From: Acidobacteriaceae bacterium
GTDB taxonomy: Bacteria > Acidobacteriota > Terriglobia > Terriglobales > Acidobacteriaceae
Direction: 5' to 3'
Length of the DNA stretch: 46,322 bases
NCBI GenBank assembly: GCA_025361625.1
Contig: JANYKL010000067.1
Span: 1-46,322 of the forward strand
The translations under genes and the position numbers were made by a program. Below are positions 1-14,080 of the stretch, piece by piece. Each line of letters begins with the position of its first letter. Position 1 is the stretch's first letter. Under the pieces are notes generated by a model. The model was not told where the DNA came from. It saw only the letters and a program-made list of their open reading frames with translations, and did no database searches.

Positions 1-767
1 ACAACCTCGTCGAAGCACTCTGATTCGCGACCTGCAAACGCGATCTGCACTCCGGCAACAGTTCGCGTCACCGCCTCGATCTTAGTTCCTAAGCGGATTC
101 GCTCCTTGTACGGATTGGTCAGAGGCTCGACATAGACACGGCTGCCGCCCTTCAACACATACCACTTCGCTTGCGTGGTGATTCCGAGAAGACCGTGATT
201 ATCCAGAAAGCGAAACAGCGTAAAAGCTGGAAACTCGTCGATCTCGTCGAGGGATGCAGACCACACCGACGCGGCCATCGGGTTCAGGTAATAGCGGGCG
301 AAGTCCCCGTCAAATGCATGGGCACTCACATATTCTCGCAACGTGATCTCGGCATTCGCCGCATCTTGAAGCAGCAATCTCGCTTCACGGTTGAAGCGCA
401 GAATCTCGGCGAATAACCGGTACTGACGCAGACGGAGCAAGTTGCTGCCAAAGAATCCCCCCAGGCCCCGAGTGCTGTACTCGAAGCCCGTATCGCGGCA
501 CGAAACTCCAAACGACATGTCACTCGGCTGCCGCTCGACGCCAAGTTTCCGAAACAGCTTTATTAAGTTCGGATACGTGCGGTCGTTGTGCACAATAAAT
601 CCAGTGTCAATCGGAAGAAGGCCGCGGCTGGTTTCGATGTCGTGAGTATGGGTGTGGCCGCCTAAGCGGGATTCTTTCTCAAAAAGCCACACTTCGTGCT
701 TACGGCTAAGCAGATAGGCAGCGGCCATTCCTGAGATGCCTGCGCCGATTACCGCGATCCGGCTCAT
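1..767 (-). CDS. FAD-dependent amine-oxidase-like oxidoreductase (3' end cut by window)
   Basis: About 255 N-terminal codons are visible; the rest lies beyond the left edge. The protein starts MSRIAVIGAGISGMAAAYLL, a dinucleotide-binding GxGxxG loop, followed by FEKESRLGGHTHT, the acidic beta-2 end and the GG motif of flavin amine oxidases/phytoene-desaturase-like proteins. Its ATG (767-765) overlaps the TGA of the upstream desaturase in an ATGA junction, so the two are translationally coupled. In other bacteria such FAD proteins occur beside DUF1365 and cyclopropane-fatty-acid synthase genes in photooxidative-stress lipid clusters; those partners would lie left of the window. I infer a role in modifying unsaturated acyl chains. 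Substrate unknown. Confidence 0.85.
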   Translation of the reverse strand, partial: MSRIAVIGAGISGMAAAYLLSRKHEVWLFEKESRLGGHTHTHDIETSRGLLPIDTGFIVHNDRTYPNLIKLFRKLGVERQPSDMSFGVSCRDTGFEYSTRGLGGFFGSNLLRLRQYRLFAEILRFNREARLLLQDAANAEITLREYVSAHAFDGDFARYYLNPMAASVWSASLDEIDEFPAFTLFRFLDNHGLLGITTQAKWYVLKGGSRVYVEPLTNPYKERIRLGTKIEAVTRTVAGVQIAFAGRESECFDEV

Positions 768-1588
768 GCTGCGATCCTCTCCGCGGTTTCCACATTTCGA
801 GGAGCGCGAAGATCGCGCGCAATGCCCAGCCAACTCATGATTTTGAGCAGGTAATAGGTCACATCGACTTCCCACCAGCGAAGTCCCTGGCGGCAGGAAT
901 ACATGAACTGGTGATGATTGTTGTGCCAGCCTTCGCCAAGTGTGATGACCGCCAGCACAAAGTTATTGCGACTATCGTCAGGCGTGGCAAAGCGGCGGGA
1001 GCCCCATAGGTGGGCTAAAGAATTGATGGTGAAAGTTCCGTGAAATAACAAAACGGTCGAAACCAGAAATCCCCATACGAAGGCGTCACAACCGCCCCAC
1101 AATAGAATCACACCACCAAGAAGGGCCGGCGGCACGCAGTAGTGTCTATCAAGCCAGCGAAGTTCGGGATATTTTCCGAAATCTTGAATAAGCCGCGGAT
1201 CGTAATCGTCGTATTCGTTAGAAAGCACCCACCCGACATGGGCCCACCAAAATCCCCGCAATCCCGGAGAGTGAATGTCGCCATCATGATCTGCCTTGCG
1301 ATGGTGGACGCGATGATGCGCCGCCCACCACAGAACGCCTTTCTGTCCCGAAGTCTCGGCCACGAACGCGATCAGAAATTGCCAGACGCGCCCTAATTTA
1401 TAAGCGCGATGACTGAAGTAGCGGTGATAACCGGCTGTGATAGCAAACATTCGAACGGCATACAAGGCTGCCATGAGTCCTACCAGCGACCAACGGAAAG
1501 GTAGTAGAAAGATGGCAAGCGCCGCCACATGCAGGAGCACGAACGGGATGACTGTTCCCAAGCGGTAAGTGCGGAGACTTTTAATCAA
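764..1588 (-). CDS. Membrane acyl-lipid/acyl-CoA fatty acid desaturase
   Basis: A 274-residue integral membrane di-iron desaturase of the delta-9/SCD type. The three histidine boxes are all present: HRYFSH in GYHRYFSHR (about residue 55), HHRVHH (about 91) and EGWHNNHHQF (about 219). Hydrophobic segments lie at about 14-50 and 155-195. The start is a TTG at 1588 with a GAGAGG stretch about 12 nt upstream; no ATG lies upstream in frame. It is the first gene of a leftward operon, coupled by ATGA to the FAD protein, and its promoter shares an operator with the divergent B12-type regulator. Expected reaction: O2-dependent insertion of a cis double bond into membrane acyl chains. The family is clear; the double-bond position is inferred. 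Confidence 0.9.
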   Translation of the reverse strand: MIKSLRTYRLGTVIPFVLLHVAALAIFLLPFRWSLVGLMAALYAVRMFAITAGYHRYFSHRAYKLGRVWQFLIAFVAETSGQKGVLWWAAHHRVHHRKADHDGDIHSPGLRGFWWAHVGWVLSNEYDDYDPRLIQDFGKYPELRWLDRHYCVPPALLGGVILLWGGCDAFVWGFLVSTVLLFHGTFTINSLAHLWGSRRFATPDDSRNNFVLAVITLGEGWHNNHHQFMYSCRQGLRWWEVDVTYYLLKIMSWLGIARDLRAPRNVETAERIAA

Positions 1589-1619
1589 GGAACGGTTTCG
1601 CCTCTCGGATTCTTCTAGA

Positions 1620-1641
1620 GGTACGCACGCAGTTGCGTACC
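1620..1641. repeat. Perfect 8-bp inverted repeat in the desaturase leader
   Basis: GGTACGCA (1620-1627) and TGCGTACC (1634-1641) are exact reverse complements around a 6-base spacer. The site lies downstream of the predicted leftward -10 (1663-1658), inside the untranslated leader and about 30 nt before the desaturase start. It could fold as an RNA hairpin or act as a second protein site; the sequence cannot decide. Confidence 0.6.
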
Positions 1642-1657
1642 GGATTGAACTTCCTTA

Positions 1658-1686
1658 GTTGTACCGTCAAAATTCGACTCTGTCAA
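1658..1686 (-). promoter_or_regulatory. Predicted sigma-70 promoter of the desaturase/FAD operon
   Basis: On the minus strand a consensus TTGACA (1686-1681) is followed after exactly 17 bases by TACAAC (1663-1658). The -35 hexamer is the outer half-site of the dyad operator at 1681-1713, so a bound regulator would occlude it. Confidence 0.55.
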
Positions 1687-1714
1687 GCATTTGTCCATGA
1701 CAAATCATTGACAA
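1680..1714. promoter_or_regulatory. Symmetrical operator between the divergent operons
   Basis: Arms 1681-1695 and 1699-1713 are reverse complements at 13 of 15 positions around a CAT centre. Within each arm half-sites recur every 11 bp: CTGTCA (1680) and TTGTCC (1691), then TGACAA (1698) and TGACAA (1709). Eleven-bp spacing of half-sites is the arrangement known for CarH-type B12 photoreceptors, one of which is encoded next door. The outer half-sites coincide with both -35 boxes. Binding by the adjacent regulator is inferred. Confidence 0.65.
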
Positions 1715-1736
1715 GAATTAAAGCGAAATGTAGGCT
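1708..1736 (+). promoter_or_regulatory. Predicted promoter of the B12-type regulator operon
   Basis: TTGACA (1708-1713) and TAGGCT (1731-1736) are separated by 17 bases. The expected transcription start falls at about 1743, one base before the ATG at 1744, suggesting a leaderless or nearly leaderless message. The -35 lies in the right arm of the operator, predicting autorepression. Confidence 0.55.
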
Positions 1737-1743
1737 GAGATTC

Positions 1744-2658
1744 ATGGCTTCAACCTATCCGATCAGCGCTGTGTCCAAGTTGACTGGCATTCCGCTCGAC
1801 ACCTTGCGTGCATGGGAGCGCCGCTACCAGGCGGTGACACCGAAGCGATCGGCTCGGGGCCGGCTCTACACTGAGATTCAAGTCCAGCGACTGCTGTTGT
1901 TGCGGCAGGCGGTTGAAAGCGGCCATGGCATCGGACAAGTGGCCAGGGTGCGAGACAAGGGGTTGCGAGAACTGCTCGACAACGGGACTACGCTCATCCA
2001 GAGTGAGGCGGCCCGAAACCAAGTTTCAGAGGATTTCCTTGCGCCAGTGCTGCGTGCGATCGAATTCTTCGACTACGCGCAAGCCGATCGGGCACTCAAC
2101 CAGGCGACAACGGCGGTTGGTAGTCCAAGAAGCCTGGTGCATCATGTCGCCCTTCCGTTGATGCGTACCATCGGTGAGCGTTGGCATCAAGGGAAATGCA
2201 GTATCGCGCAGGAACACATGCTCACCTCTCTTTTGAGCGCTCTCCTGACGTCTTTCATCAGGACCTATACACCGTCGAATCCTCGCGCGCGGGTAATGTT
2301 CGCGACTCCTGTAGATGAACGACATGGCTTTCCCAATCTAGCGGCGGCGATGCTGACGGCGGCAGGTGGTCTTGGTGTCATACATCTTGGGACTGAGTTG
2401 CCAAGTGCGGATATTGTGCTGGCGGCGCGCAAGAGCGGGGCAAGCGCACTGCTCTTAAGCATAAGCAAGACGCCGGAAAAAACTTTTGGCGACGATCTCC
2501 TCTACATCGCCCGTAAGGCACCCAAATCGACCGCCTTGTGGCTCGGTGGAGCACCTGAAGTTCTTCTCGACCGCATCGCTTACGGGCTTCGATGGCGTGT
2601 GTTGCACGATTTCGCAGCCTTGGAGCGAGAATTGACAGGAGTTGGTGCACGGTTTTGA
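1744..2658 (+). CDS. MerR-family regulator with B12-binding photoreceptor domain (CarH/LitR type)
   Basis: A 304-residue protein. Residues 5-70 form a MerR winged helix (PISAVSKLTGIPLDTLRAWE); residues about 95-172 match the helical B12-capping domain, and 180-300 the Rossmann B12 domain. The signature W-x9-EH is intact (W147, E157, H158). H148 occupies the place of the light-state second cobalt ligand of CarH, and H194 in DERHGF that of the lower axial ligand. The usual Gly three residues after that His is Pro197. In this family adenosylcobalamin-bound tetramers repress in the dark and light dissolves them. The ATG at 1744 is preferred over an upstream TTG at 1633 because it starts exactly at the conserved domain and just after the promoter. 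Light sensing is inferred from motifs only. Confidence 0.88.
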   Translation: MASTYPISAVSKLTGIPLDTLRAWERRYQAVTPKRSARGRLYTEIQVQRLLLLRQAVESGHGIGQVARVRDKGLRELLDNGTTLIQSEAARNQVSEDFLAPVLRAIEFFDYAQADRALNQATTAVGSPRSLVHHVALPLMRTIGERWHQGKCSIAQEHMLTSLLSALLTSFIRTYTPSNPRARVMFATPVDERHGFPNLAAAMLTAAGGLGVIHLGTELPSADIVLAARKSGASALLLSISKTPEKTFGDDLLYIARKAPKSTALWLGGAPEVLLDRIAYGLRWRVLHDFAALERELTGVGARF

Positions 2659-3154
2659 ATTTGTGAAAAAGGAATTCATCCATCGACGATTGGTGCAACC
2701 CGTGCTCGAATTACTGACGCAAGGTGTGACGCCCGAGAAGATTGCGCTTAGTCTGGCGGTGGGAATCGTAGTTGGAGTATTTCCCGTACTGGGCGCGACC
2801 ACTCTACTTTGCGCGGCTGCGGCATTAGTCTTCCGGCTGAATTTGCCCGCGATCCAACTGGTGAACTACATCGTGTATCCGCTCCAGCTCTTGCTCTTTG
2901 TTCCGTTCATCCGAGCTGGCGAATTTCTTTTTCGGGCGCAGCCATTGCAGCGTTCTCTCGGGCAAATTCTGGCCATGGTGCGGGCCAGTCCGGTGCAGGC
3001 CATCGCTTCCTTGTGGGTGACATCCGTCCATGCAATATCGGCTTGGCTGCTTGTGGGGCCTATCATGATCTTCGTTTTGTATTTGCCACTGGCTTATTTC
3101 GTTCGCAAAGCGGCGTTTTTAGCGCAAAGGCGACGACGAGTCGAGAATGTGTAA
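2645..3154 (+). CDS. DUF2062 membrane protein
   Basis: About 169 residues, with DUF2062 features: an amphipathic N terminus (PVLELLTQGVTPEKIALSLA), then hydrophobic segments around residues 38-65 (GVFPVLGATTLLC), 75-100 and 125-150. The start is uncertain: TTG 2642, GTG 2645 or GTG 2663 are in frame, with AGGAG at 2637-2641 close to the first two. It overlaps the regulator's 3' end by about 14 bases, so the two are probably co-transcribed and coupled. Function of the family is not established; small membrane proteins of this type often accompany lipid or cell-envelope genes. The family assignment is moderately sure. Confidence 0.75.
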   Translation: MHGFEFVKKEFIHRRLVQPVLELLTQGVTPEKIALSLAVGIVVGVFPVLGATTLLCAAAALVFRLNLPAIQLVNYIVYPLQLLLFVPFIRAGEFLFRAQPLQRSLGQILAMVRASPVQAIASLWVTSVHAISAWLLVGPIMIFVLYLPLAYFVRKAAFLAQRRRRVENV

Positions 3155-3214
3155 ACCATACTTAGCAACTTATCCGGTGCGCAGGCGCGGAATATTTCAT
3201 TATGAGGTGATGTT

Positions 3215-3613
3215 ATGTTCGTGAAACTTTATTTCATTGCGCTGCCAATTTTCTTCGCGCTCGACATGGTCTGGCTCGGGGTTGCAGCCAAGAATTTCTA
3301 TATTAAACAAATCGGTTTCCTGATGAAGACGAACGTCAATTGGGTGGCCGCGATCTTGTTCTACCTGCTTTTCGTCGTGGGGTTGGTCGTGTTCGTGATT
3401 GCTCCGTCGGTGGAAAAAGACTCATGGGTACGAGCGCTTTCGCTGGGAGCGCTGTTCGGTTTCATCAGCTATGCGACATACGATCTCACGAACCTGGCAA
3501 CGGTTAAGGATTGGCCGCTCGCTCTGACAATCGTCGACTTAATTTGGGGAACGGTACTCGGTTCTACCGTGTCGGCAGCGACTTGCCTCATCGCGAACAA
3601 AATCAAGTTATGA
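3215..3613 (+). CDS. DUF2177 family membrane protein
   Basis: A 132-residue protein with four predicted membrane helices and the family motifs DMVWLG (about residue 17), YATYDLTNLATVKDWP (about 87-102) and DLIWGT (about 108). A good ribosome-binding site, GAGGTGAT, precedes the ATG. Its stop overlaps the next ATG (ATGA), coupling it to the DUF1295 gene. The biochemical role is unknown. From established genomic associations, DUF2177, DUF1295 and FAD/desaturase genes recur together in LitR- or ECF-ChrR-controlled light and singlet-oxygen regulons, which fits this position behind a B12-type regulator. Confidence 0.85.
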   Translation: MFVKLYFIALPIFFALDMVWLGVAAKNFYIKQIGFLMKTNVNWVAAILFYLLFVVGLVVFVIAPSVEKDSWVRALSLGALFGFISYATYDLTNLATVKDWPLALTIVDLIWGTVLGSTVSAATCLIANKIKL

Positions 3614-4377
3614 ACTATTATCCAACGTTAGCACTCATGCTCTGGTTGTATATGAGCACCTGGTTCGTCATCTCGCTTGCCAGAAAACGAAATGACGTGG
3701 CCGATGTAGCTTGGGGGTTAGGGTTCGTTTTGTTAGCGTGGGCATCTTTCTTTCTTTCGGAGGTGCGCGGGACGCGCGGCTTACTGGTAAACATTCTGGT
3801 GACCGCCTGGGGCGTACGCCTTGCATGGCACATCTACACCCGAAATCGAGGCAAAGCTGAGGACTACCGCTATTTAGCCTGGCGGCATGAGTGGGGCAAG
3901 TGGTTTTATACGCGCTCTTACCTGCAAGTTTATCTTCTTCAGGGTTTGCTCCTCTTGATCATCTCCCTGCCCGTCGTGATGATCAACCGAAGCGCGCATG
4001 GGGCACTCGGCTTTGTCGATGGAATTGGCGTCTGTGTTTGGGTGCTTGGGTTCGCTTTCGAAACGGTCGCCGACGCAGAGCTCGCAAGGTTTGCCAGAGA
4101 TCCTCGCAACCGTGGCAAGATCATGCAGAGCGGCCTATGGAGATATACCCGGCATCCCAACTATTTCGGAGAGATTGTGCAGTGGTGGGGAATTTGGGTT
4201 CTATCGCTTGTTGTAAAAGGCGGCTGCCTTGCGATAATCGGACCCATCACTATCACTTTTTTGATCCTGAAGGTTTCAGGAGTTCCAATATTAGAAAAGA
4301 AGATGGCTGAAAACCCCGCTTTCGCGGACTACAAGTGGAAAACGAGCGTACTGCTCCCATGGTTTCCGAGAGCGTAG
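3610..4377 (+). CDS. DUF1295 family membrane protein (steroid 5-alpha-reductase-like fold)
   Basis: A 255-residue polytopic membrane protein. The C-terminal signature LWRYTRHPNYFGEIVQWWG (about residues 178-196) is that of DUF1295/ICMT-like proteins, where the R-HPNY region belongs to a nucleotide or SAM-binding pocket; an RNRGKAEDYRY motif lies at about 80. DUF1295 proteins are related to NADPH-dependent 5-alpha-reductases, so a reductive step on a lipid or isoprenoid is plausible but unproven. The ATG at 3610 overlaps the preceding TGA by the ATGA arrangement. It is the last gene of the rightward arm; an accessory, gene-poor region follows. Confidence 0.88.
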   Translation: MNYYPTLALMLWLYMSTWFVISLARKRNDVADVAWGLGFVLLAWASFFLSEVRGTRGLLVNILVTAWGVRLAWHIYTRNRGKAEDYRYLAWRHEWGKWFYTRSYLQVYLLQGLLLLIISLPVVMINRSAHGALGFVDGIGVCVWVLGFAFETVADAELARFARDPRNRGKIMQSGLWRYTRHPNYFGEIVQWWGIWVLSLVVKGGCLAIIGPITITFLILKVSGVPILEKKMAENPAFADYKWKTSVLLPWFPRA

Positions 4378-4812
4378 TCCGATTGAAGCCCTGGCACAGC
4401 CCGCTGACAACCTGATGATCGCGTATTCTGGGCAAAGCCACCCACATGATTTAGCTGATTTGGCTGGGCACGCAGCAAGTCAGACGACGGACAGAGTTCC
4501 ACAACCCATAATGCAGACGCCGGGCACGGGCCGCTCAGAGTCCCGAGCGAATCCGACGCCAAAACTAGAACGAATCAGCCAGACTGATTAGCGCCACTTG
4601 AGCGGGAACTGGTAAAGGCAGATGAACTATTAGTCGATGAAAGCAATAGCCATAAAGAAAGGTCGAGTGTATCGCCTGGTAAGGGGCCGTTTTCAGCCCC
4701 GTCCTATCCCGAGATCATCCCCACCGGCCTACTACACCCAAATGACAGAGATGGCGCGACGACTCCAACTGAGTATTTATAAGAACGAATTAGGTAAGAA
4801 GGCCGAGCCCAT
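4378..4812. other. Gene-poor stretch after the lipid operon
   Basis: No convincing gene is seen in these 435 bases. An open frame from 4637 has mixed, low-complexity composition and no recognisable domain. A small hairpin, GGGGC...GCCCC at 4683-4700, is the only local structure noticed; it has no following T-run. Confidence 0.5.
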
Positions 4813-4929
4813 ATGCGTCAGGAGGTCTTGTTCACTGGCTTCGGCGGGGCACTCGCAGCACTGGCAGCTTTCTTCTTCGCCATTGTTCAAGCGCATTTCG
4901 CGACGAGGTTAGCTCTTCGACTCGCCTAG
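4813..4929 (+). CDS. Possible 38-residue single-pass membrane peptide
   Basis: The frame from ATG 4813 encodes MRQEVLFTGFGGALAALAAF and continues hydrophobic, then basic (HFATRLALRLA), ending at TAG 4927-4929. This is one plausible membrane helix with a positive C-terminal tail. An AAGAAGG stretch about 9 nt upstream could serve as a ribosome-binding site. It overlaps the end of the convergent small gene by 21 bases. I have no homologue in mind; it could be chance. Confidence 0.25.
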   Translation: MRQEVLFTGFGGALAALAAFFFAIVQAHFATRLALRLA

Positions 4930-5124
4930 TCGAAGCACTGGGGATTCTGTTCGGCAGCAGACCCCATACCGTTGCCAAAGCTGAAACCAAGGGCTATGCG
5001 CGAGCATTTCGTCGTGCCTTCGATTCGCAGCCGAGAGGTCGCTTGCACTGAGTGGCCTTATGTCCGGCGCTCCGAACATCTCCTCTATCTGCTCAATGTC
5101 GTCGATGATGCGTTCAACGTTCAT
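4909..5124 (-). CDS. Small conserved-looking hypothetical protein
   Basis: Seventy-one residues from the ATG at 5124: MNVERIIDDIEQIEEMFGAP, followed by DIRPLSASDLSAANRRHDEM and LAHSPWFQLWQRYGVCC. The composition is that of a real soluble protein: an acidic amphipathic N-terminal helix, a polar centre and an aromatic W-F-x-L-W-x-x-YGVCC end. It resembles short uncharacterised acidobacterial proteins I recall, but I cannot name a family. An in-frame TTG at 5175 would add 17 residues; the ATG is preferred. The CC pair near the C terminus is the only candidate metal or redox site. Function unknown. Confidence 0.55.
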   Translation of the reverse strand: MNVERIIDDIEQIEEMFGAPDIRPLSASDLSAANRRHDEMLAHSPWFQLWQRYGVCCRTESPVLRLGESKS

Positions 5125-5715: not shown

Positions 5716-6201
5716 TTATAAAAAAGCAGCTTCAGCAAAGTGGGTTCTAACCCGCAGAACCGCGGATTGCGAGCTTCCAGTGTCGAAGCGTGCCGTTCCC
5801 ACACTCGGCCCCGCCCAGACCTTGGTCATGTCCGATTGCCAGATGAGATTGGGACACGGAGCTTCCACCTTGCCCCAGTCCTTTCTGCGGGAAATCTGAA
5901 AGCGATGCTGACGCACCAACAAGCCGCGTTCCCGCATCACGCGCAGCGCCCGCTTGCCGTTCACCATCCGTCCGCGATGCCGCTTCAACCACCAGACCAC
6001 GCGACGATAGCCATAGGCCGGCTTCTCACCGCAGGCCAGAATAATTTCCTGATCGCGCGAACGATCCGCACGATCCCGGCGCGGCTGTCGCTGATAGTAG
6101 AGACTGGACCGGCTGATTTCCAGCGTCTCGGCCACCAGCTTGGTTTCTTTTCCCTGGGCCACTAATTCCCGTGCCGACGAATGAGCTGGCCCGCAGCTCA
6201 C
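5716..6201 (-). pseudogene. IS3-family orfB (DDE transposase), truncated
   Basis: From GTG 6201 the frame carries the orfB N-terminal HTH (AETLEISRSSLYYQRQ), the HTH_21 segment (PAYGYRRVVWWLKR; NGKRALRVMRERGLL) and the start of the rve core, NLIWQSDMTKVWAGPSVG, with the first catalytic Asp at residue 124. After residue 135 the sequence no longer resembles a transposase and ends at 5716. The second Asp and the Glu are missing, so it is inactive. Confidence 0.8.
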
Positions 6202-14021: not shown

Positions 14022-14080
14022 CCCGATTCATGGGCAACTCTTCCCTGATCGGATTATGGAAGAGTTGTCGACTAATCGGG
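14022..14080. terminator. Nested inverted repeats between convergent genes (possible terminator)
   Basis: An inner perfect 10-bp pair, CAACTCTTCC (14035-14044) and GGAAGAGTTG (14058-14067), is enclosed by an outer 7-bp pair, CCCGATT (14022-14028) and AATCGGG (14074-14080). It lies between the converging kinase 2 and DUF2165 genes and overlaps the latter's stop. There is no T-run, so factor-independent termination is uncertain. Confidence 0.45.

Follow-up and report, generated by a model that had tools for sequence, protein, structure and literature searches.

The 33-bp dyad between two divergently transcribed gene sets of an Acidobacteriaceae bacterium is, as cross-locus sequence comparison indicates, a conserved element that overlaps two predicted promoters and is linked to the gene of a B12-binding MerR-type regulator and to a lipid cluster. 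The reading that we favour, with a probability of about 0.7, is that this element is the operator of the adjacent regulator, a member of the CarH/LitR group, which would close both divergent promoters in the dark and be released from them by light. The window (the whole stretch of DNA analysed here, 46,322 nucleotides) comprises the entire contig C144 of a 3.83-Mb genome assembled in 196 contigs. The features discussed below are collected in Table 1.

Table 1. Features of the operator region and its flanking genes, in coordinates of the window
Feature	Position	Strand	Basis
FAD/NAD-binding amine-oxidase family protein, resembling UfaD by family only, truncated at the contig end	3..767	-	
Fatty acid desaturase, first gene of the leftward operon	764..1588	-	ORF and domain match
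Predicted -10 box TACAAC of the leftward promoter, 17-bp spacer	1658..1663	-	Conservation across aligned operators
Operator, 33-bp dyad (15 + 3 + 15)	1681..1713	.	Sequence reading, cross-locus comparison and dyad count
Outer left half-site TTGACA (TnnACA), also the predicted -35 box of the leftward promoter	1681..1686	-	TnnACA in 32/33 operators
Inner left half-site TGGACA (TnnACA)	1692..1697	-	TnnACA in 27/33 operators
Inner right half-site ATGACA (nnnACA)	1697..1702	+	nnnACA in 29/33 operators, TnnACA in only 3/33
Outer right half-site TTGACA (TnnACA), also the predicted -35 box of the regulator promoter	1708..1713	+	TnnACA in 25/33 operators
Predicted -10 box TAGGCT of the rightward promoter, 17-bp spacer	1731..1736	+	Conservation across aligned operators
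MerR-type regulator with B12-binding domain (CarH/LitR group), 304 aa	1744..2658	+	Domain, profile, fold and motif evidence
DUF2062 membrane protein, second gene to the right, start codon uncertain	2642..3154	+	Pfam match on 2666-3154
DUF2177 membrane protein	3215..3613	+	ORF and Pfam match
DUF1295 membrane protein, earlier TTG start possible at 3511	3610..4377	+	ORF and Pfam match

Operator sequence and half-site arrangement

The dyad consists of two 15-base arms, which match at 13 positions, around a central CAT. Its left arm region contains CTGTCA (1680-1685) and TTGTCC (1691-1696), copies spaced 11 bp apart, and its right arm region contains TGACAA at 1698-1703 and again at 1709-1714, also spaced 11 bp apart. 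A preliminary description made from the sequence of the window had pointed out this dyad, its half-sites and the TTGACA on both strands, each followed by a -10 element after 17 bp, and all of these can be read in the sequence as described.

The published CarH repeat is TnnACA in 11-bp steps (PMC9304148), and the CarH-type spacing that the preliminary description had recognised agrees with it. Its further suggestion, that the half-site is unlike the motifs described for LitR-type proteins, does not hold in this form, since three of the four half-sites of the window (TTGACA, TTGACA and TGGACA) fit TnnACA, and ATGACA, the fourth, fits nnnACA. From the class II box TGTACA they are indeed distinct, and the class II LitR (PplR1) box T(G/A)TACA-N12-TGTA(C/T)A was not seen when 1658-1736 was read by eye. 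Both inner half-sites use base pair 1697, so that at most one of them can start with T, and because the plus strand carries A at this position in 30 of 33 aligned operators, the T falls to the inner left half-site.

The repeat unit, the 11-bp spacing and the overlap with (predicted) promoter elements are thus those of CarH operators. The arrangement is different, a point that the preliminary description had missed: described CarH operators have at least three tandem repeats in one direction, some of which may be degenerate, whereas here there are two repeats on each strand. A TnnACA in the next register beyond the four half-sites is present in only 0 to 2 of the 33 operators on either strand; the TnnACA counts at the four half-sites themselves are partly built in, as the pattern helped to choose the loci, but the absence of further repeats is not. 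Where operators at the compared loci vary, they shift in 11-bp steps: one right repeat is added at L068, L069 has three full repeats and a partial fourth on the left with one on the right, and L050 and L052 have an extra same-strand pair of TnnACA, with 11-bp spacing, downstream on the regulator side.

The window has two dyads of this quality (13/15 with a 3-bp centre), starting at 1681 and 14035, and three appeared across 20 Markov shuffles, an expectation of 0.15 per window against two seen. On these chance counts the dyad alone is weak evidence, and it is the comparison between loci that settles the operator. The second dyad lies at 14035-14067 of the window.

Conservation from the regulator side

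Regulator relatives are patchily distributed. Some match to the regulator, mostly weak, is found in 33 of 101 near genomes at E values up to 0.001, and at E values up to 1e-40 the family has matches in seven of its 398 genomes, counting the window's. In nine near genomes, again counting the window's, a relative reaches 43% identity or more, and in all nine the operator precedes the regulator gene; at two weaker relatives, L010 (33%) and L011 (31%), the operator layout is not evident by eye.

A scan of genome contigs gave 39 regulator-relative loci, of which 34 are labelled Acidobacteriota, three Anaeromyxobacter(aceae), one Planctomycetota and one Bifidobacterium; eight of the near genomes recur among them. 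The preliminary description had called for a comparison of the intergenic region in related genomes, and this comparison finds the operator, as a 33-bp pattern with 26 fixed bases allowing up to 5 mismatches, at 32 of the 39 loci (both strands scanned), with regulators that are 39-64% identical to the window protein. The Markov-shuffled loci gave one match at the same threshold in 1.28 Mb (one strand scanned). At the other seven of the 39 loci there is no operator match within 5 mismatches. A minus-strand gene lies to the left of the operator in nearly every compared locus. At L064, L071 and L080 other genes precede the regulator; the operator match lies 2288, 436 and 1301 bp, respectively, upstream of the regulator match and adjoins the leftward genes of the cluster.

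L080, on a contig labelled Bifidobacterium breve, bears an Acidobacteriota-type cluster and operator (5 mismatches), and the label is probably wrong. In the Anaeromyxobacter relatives L072, L074 and L078 only a degenerate operator core is left (like TTTGTCATGGATAA).

Conservation from the DNA side

Searched for directly with up to 3 mismatches, the 33-bp pattern is found at 17 places (the window's included) in 13 of 396 phylum genomes, from seven families, while the reversed control pattern has no match in the same 396 genomes. The remaining 383 genomes have no operator match at this threshold; the operator is scattered in Acidobacteriota, not universal.

All 16 places outside the window have either a regulator relative or cluster genes next to them, four of these places (L081, L082, L083 and L088) having also been found protein-first. 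The regulator itself was found at 14 of the 16: at 11 within the fetched stretch, at L087 and L090 by wider fetches (L103 and L104), and at L083 via L064, a larger locus whose operator sequence matches that of L083. The two places at which no regulator was found, L089 and L093, both have the amine oxidase, with DUF2177 also in L089, and at both no more than about 1.2 kb of contig remains on the side opposite to the amine oxidase. At L084, L095 and L096 the regulator is present with no other reference gene within the 3-kb stretch. Several genomes have more than one operator copy, namely three in G768 (L089, L094 and L096), two in G616 (L088 and L093) and two in G628 (L086 and L095), all adjoining cluster or regulator genes; as G768 and G628 each have two places with a regulator relative, the regulator gene has probably been duplicated there.

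Within the window's own genome, the full pattern matches, besides the operator itself, only one site on contig C40, with 3 mismatches, and the right three quarters of the pattern match a site on C160 with 2 mismatches. The reversed control produced two matches in the whole genome, one forward and one reverse, and the neighbours of the C160 match appear unrelated by eye; a wider regulon in this genome is therefore not claimed.

Predicted divergent promoters and leaders

On the minus strand a 17-bp spacer separates TTGACA (1686-1681) from TACAAC (1663-1658); on the plus strand TTGACA (1708-1713) likewise lies 17 bp ahead of TAGGCT (1731-1736), which agrees with TATAAT at three of six positions. 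A generic σ70 scan of 1500-1900 on both strands reported no promoter, a result that is overruled by the conservation of the -10 boxes.

This conservation was read from an alignment of 33 operators, made up of the window and the 32 matched loci. The sequences are not independent of one another, since several belong to the window's genus; L049, L057, L069, L072, L074, L078 and L079 were left out, as they either exceed 5 mismatches or have no match at all. Within the 33 bp the fixed positions have a high information content, which selection with the pattern partly ensures. Outside the 33 bp the information content exceeds 0.5 bit only in the two predicted -10 boxes, which played no part in the locus-finding pattern, and at the single base immediately preceding the dyad; a few other columns reach 0.3 to 0.5 bit. 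Beyond the right end, TAnnnT is found after 17 bp in 22 of 33 operators and after 18 bp in four, and in at most one at any other spacer from 8 to 31 bp. Beyond the left end, hexamers matching TATAAT at four or more of six positions are found after 17 bp in 17 operators and after 18 bp in seven, compared with at most four at other spacers; TAnnnT is rarer on this side (7/33 at 17 bp). The left box in the nearest relatives (L042-L045, L047 and L048) reads TACAAC, TACAAC, TAAAAC, TACAAC, TATAAG and TACAAA. Both predicted promoters are supported by these -10 boxes, recurring 17 bp beyond each end of the operator, and the earlier proposal of one operator lying on the -35 boxes of two divergent promoters is borne out to this extent.

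The regulator ATG starts 7 nt past the right -10 box in the window. Among the 25 loci that have the right -10 box at spacer 17 or 18 and the regulator as first gene, an in-frame start codon lies 6 to 11 nt past the box in 20 and 14 to 23 nt past it in five. Such short distances suggest that the regulator mRNA is probably leaderless, and they also support the right -10 box.

The predicted 5' leader of the leftward operon (1612-1651, minus strand) has CAATCC near its start and in the window can form an 8-bp perfect hairpin (GGTACGCA/TGCGTACC), with fold z scores of -2.9 over 40 nt and -1.3 over 63 nt. In this region GGATTG and GTACG (plus strand) are invariant in seven aligned sequences. An Rfam search of window positions 1-5000 found no known RNA family at gathering thresholds.

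The regulator

The regulator combines a MerR-type DNA-binding domain with RxWERRY, a B12 domain and a CarH fold. In a profile search its best solved matches are 3whp, a probable transcriptional regulator (E 6e-32), and CarH 5c8d (E 7e-32), and the AlphaFold2 model (pLDDT 85, pTM 0.66) has its best fold match in CarH 5c8d/5c8e (E 2e-16, TM about 0.54, full-length rmsd 11-14 Å). The best NCBIfam model is the CarH equivalog NF052513, with 96.8 bits (E 1.3e-27) against a cut-off of 400. On this sequence and model evidence the protein belongs to the CarH/LitR group and is not filed as an NCBIfam CarH equivalog.

The Wx9EH motif, which caps the adenosyl group in CarH and is absent from CarA (PMC9304148, PMC8156234), is present as W147...E157 H158 and is invariant in nine of nine aligned sequences, the window's included; the Trp has a His next to it on the C-terminal side. 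The His-ligand motif reads E192-R-H194-G-F-P197, where Pro is an accepted variant in the CarH B12 motif (PMC9304148, PMC8156234), and S239 and GG268-269 follow at the expected spacing. The strict pattern D/ExHx2G/Px41SxT/Vx22-27GG does not match, the deviation being SxS instead of SxT/V. A combination of GxxW, EH, GxxH and GxxxP has been used as a search signature for light-responsive B12 domains, not as a family definition (PMC11796333); the window regulator has three of the four, with DxxH in place of GxxH, which is intact in the relatives L006, L008 and L009.

Neighbouring genes and cofactor supply

The leftward genes share families with the furan fatty acid enzymes known from Rhodobacter sphaeroides, UfaD, UfaO and UfaM (PMC7380195), an assignment made by family only. 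The amine-oxidase gene is interrupted by the end of the window contig, and the end of contig C137 carries an amine-oxidase C-terminal part (residues 273-419 of the relative at L031), a DUF1365 gene and a cyclopropane-synthase-like gene, in the same order as in relatives. The leftward operon probably makes furan- or cyclopropane-type fatty acids that guard membranes against photo-oxidation.

Some relatives have photolyase-family genes within the cluster or next to it; those at L036 (9135-10562) and L033 (4448-5851) comprise one divergent from the regulator and one among the regulator-side genes. No FAD_binding_7 (photolyase) match was found in the window genome. Elsewhere in the window, an ORF at 5716-6201 on the minus strand resembles, by eye, an IS3-type transposase fragment.

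The window genome encodes a BtuR/CobA-type adenosyltransferase, while no PduO-type enzyme was found in it, and it also encodes a methylmalonyl-CoA mutase. From the BtuR/CobA-type enzyme and the mutase, adenosylcobalamin (AdoCbl) is likely to be available in the host.

Proposed mechanism and alternative readings

The mechanism that we propose is modelled on characterised CarH proteins (PMC9304148, PMC8156234). The operator would consist of two 11-bp-spaced TnnACA-type half-sites per strand, placed back to back around base pair 1697, with each outer half-site doubling as the -35 box of one divergent promoter. In the dark the regulator, oligomerised by AdoCbl, would fill the four half-sites and bar RNA polymerase from both -35 boxes; light would cleave the Co-C bond and dissociate the oligomer, so that both operons would be expressed together. 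The genes under common control would be the regulator and membrane-protein genes to the right and the desaturase and UfaD-, UfaO- and UfaM-like genes to the left, and the regulator gene would, as a consequence of the operator position, be autoregulated. If true, this would make a compact bidirectional light switch, and it predicts light control of a lipid-protection operon, possibly for furan fatty acids, in Acidobacteriota.

Several other readings bear on different parts of this mechanism. The MerR-type DNA-binding domain might suggest that the regulator activates both promoters in the manner of classic MerR proteins, which is very improbable given that the spacers are an ordinary 17 bp. MerR-activated promoters have spacers of 19-20 bp. 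Described CarH proteins, in addition, repress (PMC9304148). It is unlikely, though with a better chance than activation, that the regulator binds here and senses something other than light and AdoCbl, such as B12 status alone, or has no ligand, like CarA; the change from G to D in GxxH and the S in place of T/V in the B12 motif would fit such a protein, whereas the intact Wx9EH, with its Trp followed by His, the Pro as an accepted B12-motif variant and the photolyase-family genes in or adjoining some relatives' clusters argue for light and AdoCbl. Hardly any weight falls on an ordinary one-strand tandem CarH operator with degenerate extra repeats, the dyad reflecting no more than two consensus -35 boxes: degenerate repeats are tolerated in CarH operators (PMC9304148) and the outer TTGACA is a -35 box, but a full TnnACA third repeat in the next register is seen in only 0 to 2 of 33 operators on either strand, and conservation of the inner halves, which do not form promoter elements, is about equal to that of the outer halves.

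How the four half-sites would be occupied is a closer matter. Two separate dimers, one on each strand's repeat pair and each closing its own promoter with no single tetramer, have a substantial chance, if one well short of even: the Cystobacter CarH binds tandem repeats as cooperative dimers (PMC9304148, PMC8156234), and the extra same-strand TnnACA pair at L050 and L052 looks as if the pair were the unit. Against this, the register between the pairs is constant in the 32 matched loci and in distant families, a constancy that is partly built in, as the pattern fixes the register. The two-fold symmetry of the site makes the reading of one tetramer on all four half-sites attractive and plausible, although two dimers would give the same sequence. 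The single-tetramer reading can be extended, tentatively and at slightly less than even odds, to the CarH group of Acidobacteriota as a whole, which would use a two-fold symmetric mode in which one AdoCbl-built tetramer sits with its four DNA-binding domains on two inverted repeat pairs as a light-released clamp on two promoters, in contrast to the one-way tandem mode of described CarH proteins, and serves membrane-lipid and not carotenoid genes.

Comparison with known systems

The CarH operators of Thermus thermophilus and Bacillus megaterium share with the window the 11-bp TnnACA repeats, the promoter overlap and a B12-binding MerR-type regulator, but they have three or four one-way tandem repeats, in contrast to the two per strand and two promoters here (PMC9304148). 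In the CarA/CarH operator at Pcrt of Myxococcus xanthus and its relatives, the -35 TTGACA likewise lies inside one of the 11-bp repeats; this operator covers about 55 bp with five one-way repeats, some degenerate, and the inverted repeats proposed there fade in relatives, direct repeats being favoured in the published account, whereas the inverted layout of the window is conserved (PMC9304148). In the CarH tetramer two head-to-tail dimers are joined as a dimer, and it has been described as unexpected that this tetramer binds direct repeats (PMC8156234); a natural inverted operator in several Acidobacteriota families would be well suited to testing how the CarH subunits are positioned on DNA.

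The Pseudomonas class II LitR proteins PplR1 and PmlR2 belong to the LitR/CarH family and control light-regulated genes, with UfaM among the light-induced genes of P. putida, but their box is T(G/A)TACA-N12-TGTA(C/T)A, they retain just one of two B12-binding domains, and PmlR2 acts with a LOV protein (PMC9758184). The available part of a Vibrio cholerae MerR paper (PMC5241685) gives no operator. Rhodobacter sphaeroides ufaM, ufaD and ufaO correspond to the methyltransferase, NAD/FAD-type desaturase and DUF1365 families of the leftward operon; furan fatty acid is raised there by deletion of chrR (PMC7380195), whereas in the window a CarH-type operator precedes the genes, whose enzymes are assigned by family only.

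In the literature searched, which covers few subscription journals, we found among the papers listed neither a description of a back-to-back 2+2 layout on two promoters nor a paper on a CarH operator in Acidobacteriota. The repeat unit and its spacing are already known from CarH operators, and the new part is the conserved back-to-back 2+2 layout serving two promoters.
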